Source of the DNA: Erysipelotrichaceae bacterium
GTDB lineage: Bacteria > Bacillota_I > Bacilli_A > Erysipelotrichales > Erysipelotrichaceae
Direction of reading: 5' to 3'
NCBI GenBank assembly: GCA_009773735.1
Contig: WSYG01000025.1
Location: 1 to 40,519, forward strand
DNA: 40,519 nt
Every line of letters begins with the position of its first letter. Position 1 is the first letter of the stretch. A program made the position numbers and the translations under genes. Positions 8,091 to 11,563 of the stretch are shown here, in pieces. The notes under the pieces were generated by a model, which saw only the letters and a list, made by a program, of their open reading frames with translations, was not told where the DNA came from and searched no databases.

Positions 8091-8570
8091 TTACTTCGCT
8101 AAATACATCAAAATGTCTTTTTCGATACTGGCAGGGGTAATATTCGATTCATAACGTTTGACCACATCGCCTTTTCTATCAACCAAAAACTTCGTAAAAT
8201 TCCATTTGATTTGAGCGCCTAAGAAACTGCCTTTGGCTTTTTTTAGATAGGAATACAGAGGGGCTTCATTGGCTCCATTGACTTCGATTTTAGCAAATCT
8301 AGGGAAAGTCGTCGAATAATTGAGGGTACAAAATGCATTGATGTCTTCTATGGTGCCTGGCGCTTGTTTACCAAATTGATTACACGGAAAATCCAAAACG
8401 ACAAATCCTTTGGCTTCATGATCCTTATACAACTTTTCTAAACCTTCATATTGAGGCGTAAAACCACAACCTGTGGCGGTGTTGACAATCAGCATGACCT
8501 TGTTTTGATAAGGGGCTAAATTGATGTCTTGTTGAGCTGTATTCTTAAGTGGGATGTTGTAAATGTTCAT
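8091..8570 (-). CDS. Glutathione peroxidase-family thiol peroxidase (Cys type)
   Basis: 159 residues from the ATG at 8570, which has AAGGA upstream; a further in-frame extension to 8630 has no such site and crosses the promoter. Key residues: peroxidatic Cys in NTATGCGFTPQY (usually NVASKCGFT; note Gly for Lys), Gln in FPCNQFGKQ, Trp in IKWNFTKFLV, and a second Cys in INAFCTLNY that can form the resolving disulfide. Bacterial members of this type mostly use thioredoxin to reduce lipid and organic peroxides. Co-transcribed with ohrR, which fits a peroxide-induced role. Confidence 0.9.
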   Translation of the reverse strand: MNIYNIPLKNTAQQDINLAPYQNKVMLIVNTATGCGFTPQYEGLEKLYKDHEAKGFVVLDFPCNQFGKQAPGTIEDINAFCTLNYSTTFPRFAKIEVNGANEAPLYSYLKKAKGSFLGAQIKWNFTKFLVDRKGDVVKRYESNITPASIEKDILMYLAK

Positions 8571-8587
8571 GTGTGTTTCCTTTTTAC

Positions 8588-8630
8588 ATTGTATACAATT
8601 TAATATTATCAAATGTATTTCAAATGTCAA
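8588..8630 (-). promoter_or_regulatory. gpx-ohrR promoter with OhrR operator
   Basis: Minus strand: TTGACA (8630-8625), 16 bases, TAATAT (8608-8603), then the perfect 12-bp palindrome ATTGTATACAAT (8599-8588). The surrounding TTAAATTGTATACAAT matches the core of the known Bacillus ohrA operator. The box covers the start-site region, so binding would block transcription. Confidence 0.8.
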
Positions 8631-8657: not shown

Positions 8658-9137
8658 TTAATGATCTTTGATGTTTTTGATGGCCAATAAGAGTTTTTCT
8701 AGATCCATCTTTGTATGTTCAGTTGCGTCGATGTTGACATTGATCCCAAATTCACAGCGATGAAGACAACGTTGTGTCTTAAGTTCAAAGCGTCCATCTT
8801 TGGTTTGTGAACCTACTCTACAATCCAGTGCTTTCTCAACACTTTGGATAAAAGCTGCAGCTCCTCGATTAGAACACCGTTCTCCATTACATAAAGTAAT
8901 CGTATGCACCTTAGTTTCAGTTCGTAAGCTTGGACTTCTTAAGATCAAACCTTTTAAGATGGCAGGAGAAGTCTTAAGCTGTTGACTCATCAAATCGATG
9001 GCTTCTTGTGGGATGAGTCCATATTCTGCCTGTATCTCTTTTAAACAAGCCAATAGACTGATTTGATCGACCCCGATAAAATCATCCTCATAAGCTTGAA
9101 TCAATCGTTTAAGTTTGCTTGATTCTTCTTCATTCAT
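8658..9137 (-). CDS. NuoE/HydC-type thioredoxin-like [2Fe-2S] protein
   Basis: 159 residues. After a helical N-terminus (LLACLKEIQAEYGLIPQEAI), the thioredoxin-like domain has the four cluster ligands in the NuoE pattern: Cys-x4-Cys in TLCNGERCSNRGA and Cys-x3-Cys in QRCLHRCEFG. In the family this subunit passes electrons between a NuoF/HydB flavoprotein and partner clusters. No NuoF-like gene is nearby, so it may serve the [FeFe] hydrogenase of the same operon directly or work with an unlinked partner. Its ATG overlaps the TGA of the dehydrogenase gene (ATGA). Confidence 0.85.
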   Translation of the reverse strand: MNEEESSKLKRLIQAYEDDFIGVDQISLLACLKEIQAEYGLIPQEAIDLMSQQLKTSPAILKGLILRSPSLRTETKVHTITLCNGERCSNRGAAAFIQSVEKALDCRVGSQTKDGRFELKTQRCLHRCEFGINVNIDATEHTKMDLEKLLLAIKNIKDH

Positions 9138-10051
9138 AGCTGATTCTCTAATGGCTCTCCCGCAAGATAATGTTGGATGTTGTTGATAAAGTTGGTGTAG
9201 TTTCGCTCTTTGGTGAGTTGACCAGAATTGGAGTTATGCGGGGTAATCATGACTTTAGGATGATCCCATAAAGGACTGTTCGCATCCAAAGGTTCACTCT
9301 CAAAGACATCCAGATAGGCAAATGAAATCTGATCTGACCTTAAAGCTTTCAATAATGCAACTTCATCAACTGTTTTACCACGACCTACATTGGCTATGAT
9401 GGCCCCTGATTTTAAAGTTTCAAAGAAGGCTTCATTCATCAGATGATGCGTTTCTGGTGAATATGGCAAGGTATTGATGACGATATCAGCACTGCGTAGA
9501 TATTCATGGACCTCGCTCATCTTTCCTGTCACATTGAAAGGTTCTACTTCCCTACCATTGGTGTTTAGTCCAATCAGTAAGAGTCCAAAAGGTTTTAAAC
9601 GAAGCGCTGTCTCAGCTGCAATACTGCCTGTTCCTAAGAAAAGTATTTTTAGAAAACCCATCTCTCTAACTTCATGTCTTTTCCATACATGGGCTTTTTG
9701 TTGAGCTGCAAATTCAGGTTGAAGTTTAATGGCCATTAAAATATGCATGACGGTCATTTCAGCAATGGGTGCACTAAAGACCCCTTTCGCATTGGATATC
9801 AACTTACCATCGCTTAACCACTTTTGTATCGGCATGGAATCATAGCCCGCTAGACTCAGTTGGATAAATTTTAAATTGGTAAAGGCATTATAAGGATGTA
9901 GGGCAATTGGTATTCTTCCATAAATAACATCATAGAGTGAAGGGTCAAAGGACTCCATATCATCTAAATAATCGACTTCTATTCCAGCATTACTGAAACG
10001 CTCTTTCACATCTAAGGGTAAGGGGCTTAATTCTGAGATCAGTATTTTCAT
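9134..10051 (-). CDS. D-isomer-specific 2-hydroxyacid dehydrogenase
   Basis: 305 residues. Rossmann motif FLGTGSIAAETA (about 149-160). The catalytic triad is present: Arg in NVGRGKTVDE, Glu in DVFESEPLD and His in TPHNSN. After the second strand the usual acidic residue is replaced in GLNTNGR, which could favour NADP over NAD. It would reduce a 2-keto acid to the D-hydroxy acid or the reverse; substrate unknown. AAAGGA leads the ATG and the gene sits 18 bases after the hydrogenase, 4-base overlapped with the NuoE-like gene, suggesting redox balancing in fermentation. Confidence 0.88.
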   Translation of the reverse strand: MKILISELSPLPLDVKERFSNAGIEVDYLDDMESFDPSLYDVIYGRIPIALHPYNAFTNLKFIQLSLAGYDSMPIQKWLSDGKLISNAKGVFSAPIAEMTVMHILMAIKLQPEFAAQQKAHVWKRHEVREMGFLKILFLGTGSIAAETALRLKPFGLLLIGLNTNGREVEPFNVTGKMSEVHEYLRSADIVINTLPYSPETHHLMNEAFFETLKSGAIIANVGRGKTVDEVALLKALRSDQISFAYLDVFESEPLDANSPLWDHPKVMITPHNSNSGQLTKERNYTNFINNIQHYLAGEPLENQL

Positions 10052-10069
10052 AAGGTCCTTTCGTAACAG

Positions 10070-11563
10070 TTAATCCTGATTCTTAAACTCTGCATAGGTC
10101 TTTAAAGCAGAAGCTTTGTCTGAAGATCGGGCAAAATTAGTAACATTGGATGTTGCTTTGGTTGGATGAATAATGGTACCCGCTCCTCCAACACAACCTC
10201 CCGGACAAGCCATACCTTCCAGTAAGTAACCATCTTTTCGTCCTGCTTTGGCCATCAGCAGCATCTTTCGACAACTGTGCAATGTCTCAGCCCGTTCGAC
10301 TTTAATAACGCGATCAGGATCTAAACGCTTGATGACGTTTTCTACCGCACTCAGCACACCTCCACTGATCGCAAATCCACGACCATCCACCGAAGCATGA
10401 TTTAGAGTATGACTGGGAATCAAAGTGACCAAATCAATACCTCTGGCTATAAACATCGCATTGATTTCTTCATACGTCAGTACGAAGTTTACATTTTGAT
10501 TGGGATCCATATAAGCTGCTTCATATTTCTTGGCTGAACACGGACCAATCATAACGATCCTTGTCTTTGGGAATTGTTTTCTTAAGTAGTTGGCAGTTTC
10601 AACCATCGGTGATAATGAATCTGATACACAATAGGCTTTATCGCCTAGTTCTTTTTGGGCTACTTTTAACCATGCGGGACAACACGATGTCGCTAAGAAA
10701 GGTTGATCGATCGGGACATTTTTTAAGAAGTGACGCGCTTCATCTACAGCCGTAATATCAGCCCCATACGCCACTTCACGCACATCATCAAAACCTAGTT
10801 GAAGTAAGCCTTCAACCACTTGATCGGCACTTACTTTATCGCCAAATTGTCCTACAAAAGCTGGGGCAATGATCGCACAGACTTCATCTTCGCCTTTGAA
10901 AGCTTCAACCAACTGATAGATCTCAGATTTATCCATGATGGCACCAAATGGACATGTCACCATTCACATCCCACAACTGACACATTTCTCAGTCACGATC
11001 ACGGCACGTTCTTGGTCATCCTTGGTGATTGCATTGACCCCACAGGCTGCATTACACGGACGTTCATTCTTAACGATCGAACCATAAGGACACACATCAT
11101 AACAACGTCCACATTTGATACAAGGGTCTTGATCAATAAACGCTTGTCCATTTTGCATACTTATACATTTGACTGGACATACTTCAACACAAGGATGAGC
11201 TAAACATCCATGACAAGCATTGGTCACAAAGAAACTCTTCTCTTCACACGCTTCACAGGCTTGAGGAATCACGTTGACTAAGGCCTGTCCTACTTTTTTA
11301 GTTTTTAAAGACTCAAGATCTTCATCGATAAAATGCTTCTCAAACGAAGTTCCGAGTTCCATATTCATCGCCAATTTAATCCGAGCTCTTACGATCTCAC
11401 GTTCACGTTCAATGGAATCACGATACCGTGGCATTCCCTCTTCAATCATCTCAAAAGGTATCTCTTCAAGTCTTTCTTTTGACCAACCTTCATAAGCAGC
11501 TGCCGTCACATTCTTAAAGATTTCATTTCTAAGAAATTTGACTGTGGTAAATACACCGCGCAT
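10070..11563 (-). CDS. Monomeric [FeFe] hydrogenase with an in-frame UGA at a cluster cysteine position
   Basis: One frame of 498 codons interrupted only by TGA at 10966-10964 (codon 200). Before it: a helical N-terminus (1-100) and ferredoxin motifs CHGCLAHPCVEVCP (117-130), CIKCGRCYDVCP (148-159), RPCNAAC (169-174) and CVSCGM (194-199). The UGA stands exactly where the third Cys of CxxCxxCxxxCP belongs, and MVTCPFGAI follows. Then come the three H-cluster motifs: TSCCPAW (292-298), GPCSAKKYE (340-348) and GMACPGGCVGG (450-460). The protein resembles the clostridial group B (CpIII-like) enzymes that make or consume H2 with ferredoxin. Options: selenocysteine, a fresh nonsense mutation of TGT/TGC, restart at the ATG directly after the UGA giving two polypeptides, or a sequencing error. 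AGGAGG precedes the ATG at 11563. Confidence 0.8.

Follow-up and report, generated by a model that had tools for sequence, protein, structure and literature searches.

An in-frame TGA at a cluster cysteine codon of a group B1 [FeFe] hydrogenase gene from an Erysipelotrichaceae bacterium: a probable nonsense substitution, not a selenocysteine codon

The interrupted hydrogenase gene and its surroundings

The stretch of DNA analysed here (the window) comprises 40,519 nucleotides of contig WSYG01000025.1, part of an 82-contig draft assembly (1.94 Mb, 99.3% complete) of an Erysipelotrichaceae bacterium. Translation of the minus strand from position 11563 to position 10070 gave a frame of 498 codons (497 plus the stop) with a single internal stop, a TGA at codon 200 (10964..10966, minus strand). 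The gene (10070..11563) was identified as that of a group B1 monomeric [FeFe] hydrogenase, broken at codon 200. With the TGA read as Cys, its product scored 555.4 bits against TIGR04105 (monomeric [FeFe] hydrogenase, B1), for which the curated cut-off is 450; PF02906 matched the C-terminal half with 184 bits, and identity with seven same-genus orthologues was 77-86%. The uninterrupted frame expected of a group B1 hydrogenase is therefore not what this gene presents.

The TGA occupies the position of the third Cys of the last CxxCxxCxxxCP motif, in the context ...EKCVSCGM*MVTCPFGA.... According to translation and alignment, the N-terminal open half (10964..11563, minus strand; 199 aa) contains the N-terminal ferredoxin-like part and most of the accessory-cluster Cys residues, and the C-terminal open half (10070..10963, minus strand; 297 aa from ATG201) contains the leftover Cys (CPFG) of the last ferredoxin motif together with the H-cluster motifs TSCCP, GPCSAKK and ACPGGC, which align with those of relatives. 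All remaining cluster and H-cluster motifs are kept besides codon 200. The first-pass annotation, made from the letters of the window, had described one frame with a single TGA at the third Cys of this motif and the other motifs kept on either side; both observations were borne out by the translation and the TIGR04105 score.

Two conserved neighbours lie downstream on the same strand, a D-2-hydroxyacid dehydrogenase-like gene (9134..10051) and a gene for a NuoE-like thioredoxin-fold [2Fe-2S] protein (8658..9137), both assigned by family match and synteny. The operon-like order of hydrogenase, D-2-hydroxyacid dehydrogenase and NuoE-like [2Fe-2S] protein (8658-11563, minus strand) is kept in two same-genus genomes. 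A 40-kb comparison with two relatives revealed that window genes with syntenic counterparts were essentially full length. One other gene in the window is broken, namely psuG (pseudouridine-5'-phosphate glycosidase family, PF04227; 17587-18464, minus strand), which carries an out-of-frame internal deletion of ~40 nt relative to loci L176/L177 and of which the same-genus copies are mostly full length; the background of broken genes in the window is therefore not zero. A psuG homologue in a same-genus genome (L178, G003:C2:198604-199191) contains an in-frame TAG, and psuG may have been lost repeatedly in the genus.

Elsewhere in the genome, one cluster holds intact HydE, HydG and HydF, and a group A hydrogenase cluster of HydA/HydB/HydC type with NADH-dehydrogenase-type partners is also intact (HydE, HydF, HydB and HydC were named from sequence and context, not by family search). 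A TAA inside the HydG match had raised the suspicion that the hydrogenase genes were decaying together; this was rejected, since that TAA terminates the upstream gene and HydG itself is intact. Because the HydEFG maturases and the HydABC-type hydrogenase are intact, loss of the B1 copy should be tolerable; as judged from gene content, some H2 metabolism would survive without the B1 enzyme.

Codon 200 in relatives and the reading of UGA

All seven same-genus orthologues are uninterrupted, their codon 200 being TGT or TGC. The farther homologues containing the motif that were listed in the codon comparison likewise have TGT/TGC. Among 80 homologue loci from GTDB, the site reads TGT/TGC in 79 (76 by pattern and three by hand), and the remaining locus, L144, has no in-frame stop. 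When 395 genomes of the class were scanned for the exact pattern, TGA turned up in the motif in one genome only, the present one. The lesion is missing in the orthologues, as is expected for a nonsense pseudogene. One of the 80 loci, L107 from an uncultured Ruthenibacterium MAG, is a B1 homologue with its own in-frame TAA at codon 111, indicating that isolated nonsense codons do arise in B1 family genes of draft genomes.

A UGA on a conserved Cys is the classical signature of Cys/Sec pairing, and the first-pass annotation had called selenocysteine (Sec) at this codon possible, though not favoured, proposing an alignment of homologues at codon 200, a search of the genome for selA, selB, selC and selD, and folding of positions 10966-10910. 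The TGT/TGC codons of the relatives count against Sec, with no UGA-bearing homologue found among the seven same-genus orthologues and the 80 GTDB loci. In the 99.3%-complete genome, which was examined family by family and in stretches, no selA (best match 18 bits against a cut-off of 268), selB (201 against 242 bits) or selD (23 against 125 bits) was detected, and no tRNA-Sec match reached the gathering score. The best selB match was rejected as EF-Tu, the other selB matches being open frames of 600-700 aa, the size expected of related translation GTPases, which they putatively encode; the sub-cut-off tRNA-Sec matches were rejected as ordinary tRNAs (Ser, Leu, Gly, Trp, Met). Nor did selA exceed its curated cut-off in any of 51 genomes, comprising the present one and its relatives.

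The candidate SECIS stretch (10910..10966, minus strand) was without significant structure, the 57 nt after the UGA folding no better than shuffled sequence (z = +0.55). The stem of 7 bp with an 11-nt loop pointed out earlier does exist, 9 nt past the UGA, and, as had been noted, has no G at either of its first two loop positions. The MFE prediction gives a different fold, and the loop-G rule is satisfied solely by a weak 5-bp stem. The glutathione peroxidase encoded in the window (8091-8630) has Cys in what we take to be its active-site motif. A literature search for Sec in [FeFe] hydrogenases returned nothing relevant, and the available excerpts of two selenoproteome reviews give Sec in [NiFeSe] hydrogenases, not in an [FeFe] hydrogenase (PMC9312934, PMC13188914). 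Insertion of selenocysteine at UGA200 is ruled out as far as the assembly allows, and we assign it a negligible probability; of the earlier judgement, "not favoured" stands and "possible" does not, given the absent sel genes and the TGT/TGC codons of relatives.

UGA terminates 7 of the 41 ORFs of the window, one of them being the N-terminal half of the hydrogenase itself, in agreement with the earlier remark that UGA is a normal stop in neighbouring genes. No tRNA with a UCA anticodon was present among the 43 tRNAs of the genome, and reassignment of UGA to Trp or Cys was rejected on both grounds. UGA is the leakiest stop codon, which is relevant with A next, as here, and the gene shows no sign of decay; low-level read-through by a near-cognate tRNA (Trp or Cys) might then yield some full-length enzyme. 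This is very improbable in our estimation, as no dedicated suppressor tRNA was found and a Trp in the cluster-ligand position would not ligate.

The coincidence of the stop with a Cys codon is not striking. The hydrogenase protein has 25 Cys, and of the 209 single-base nonsense changes possible in the gene, 25 (12%) fall on Cys. Single-base changes creating TGA number 66, of which 25 (38%) fall on Cys; in a protein so rich in Cys, a TGA on one of them needs no special explanation.

A proposed restart at ATG201 and the age of the stop

An ATG directly adjoins the TGA, and constraint is kept in both halves of the gene, the counted dN/dS relative to sister genomes being about 0.04-0.10 in each, with synonymous sites near saturation. 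Both observations would fit termination at the TGA followed by re-initiation at ATG201, giving a working hydrogenase of two polypeptides. On the other side, Shine-Dalgarno pairing at ATG201 is weak (-4.5 kcal/mol, compared with -10.9 kcal/mol for the gene's own start), and in the seven same-genus orthologues, all of them intact, this ATG encodes an internal Met. Group B enzymes are described as combining an H-cluster domain, which has two [4Fe-4S] clusters, with a ferredoxin-like domain of its own (PMC12578642). When aligned to solved group A enzymes, the break falls in the H-cluster-bearing domain and interrupts a ligand motif there, so that the split loses one ligand and parts the CPFG Cys from its motif inside that domain; two self-sufficient proteins would therefore not be made. 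The earlier suggestion that a restart yields separate electron-transfer and catalytic polypeptides does not hold, as codon 200 falls within a [4Fe-4S] motif belonging to the H-cluster-bearing domain. Restart appears mechanically possible, but a useful split is unlikely, and we give a working two-polypeptide enzyme little credence. Slimmer still are the chances of a group B [FeFe] hydrogenase recently split by stop-and-restart in the ferredoxin motif, with one accessory cluster lost or re-ligated and activity kept.

Besides the TGA, no further lesion was found within the hydrogenase gene, and nothing points to prolonged decay. Residue changes specific to the present lineage numbered 20 (the stop not counted), as against 11 for the sister lineage, for which the rule was stricter in that two genomes had to agree; these counts are not clear evidence of faster change in the present lineage. 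A test for relaxed selection showed no clear excess in dN/dS, for which synonymous sites are near saturation, or in lineage-specific changes. With no other lesion and a low dN/dS, either the gene remains functional or the TGA is of recent origin or erroneous; intact-looking selection would be expected alike from a very recent mutation, from an error and from a split gene that is still useful.

Nonsense substitution, base error and comparison with known systems

The real gene might be intact and the TGA a base error, the assembly being a metagenome-type draft. The assembly is an 82-contig draft, the gene is otherwise free of lesions and under normal constraint, and the site is strictly Cys in relatives, all of which is consistent with such an error. 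The position is internal to the 40.5-kb contig, however, substitution errors in the consensus of short-read assemblies are generally infrequent, and the psuG indel of ~40 nt in the same window is hard to explain as a base error. We consider a base error possible, yet rather unlikely.

The gene is probably that of an ordinary group B1 [FeFe] hydrogenase in which a nonsense change of one base turned a Cys codon into TGA after the lineage parted from its sister species. Among the options of the first-pass annotation, the best supported is that TGT/TGC recently became TGA, whether in reality or through a base error. On this reading UGA acts as a normal stop, and translation gives a fragment of 199 aa, perhaps accompanied by some of the fragment of 297 aa; the full set of cluster ligands is present in neither. 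We infer a genuine, recent change that most likely leaves the B1 hydrogenase of the present strain inactive. The intact HydEFG maturases and bifurcating HydABC-type hydrogenase could sustain H2 metabolism.

This analysis removes a false selenoprotein candidate; a Sec-ligated ferredoxin-type cluster in an [FeFe] hydrogenase would have been surprising. It also illustrates a simple triage, consisting of the Sec machinery, a codon survey of orthologues and a check of how often neighbouring genes are interrupted. A real mutation would provide one case in which a group B hydrogenase was lost and the bifurcating hydrogenase retained.

With group B1 monomeric [FeFe] hydrogenases (TIGR04105) the gene shares full-length architecture, all motifs, the conserved downstream genes and its close similarity to same-genus orthologues; it differs in that its last ferredoxin motif has TGA in place of one Cys codon. 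A TGA aligned to a conserved Cys is also a feature of bacterial selenoproteins with Cys/Sec pairs, but here there is no Sec machinery, SECIS or TGA-bearing homologue, and the motif is a 4Fe-4S ligand set. With ordinary nonsense pseudogenes it has in common an isolated single stop, intact orthologues, a second [FeFe] hydrogenase in the genome and a broken psuG nearby, and no differing feature was found. The case is of an ordinary kind, a nonsense substitution in a known enzyme that is most likely real, or else a base error, and not a selenoprotein.
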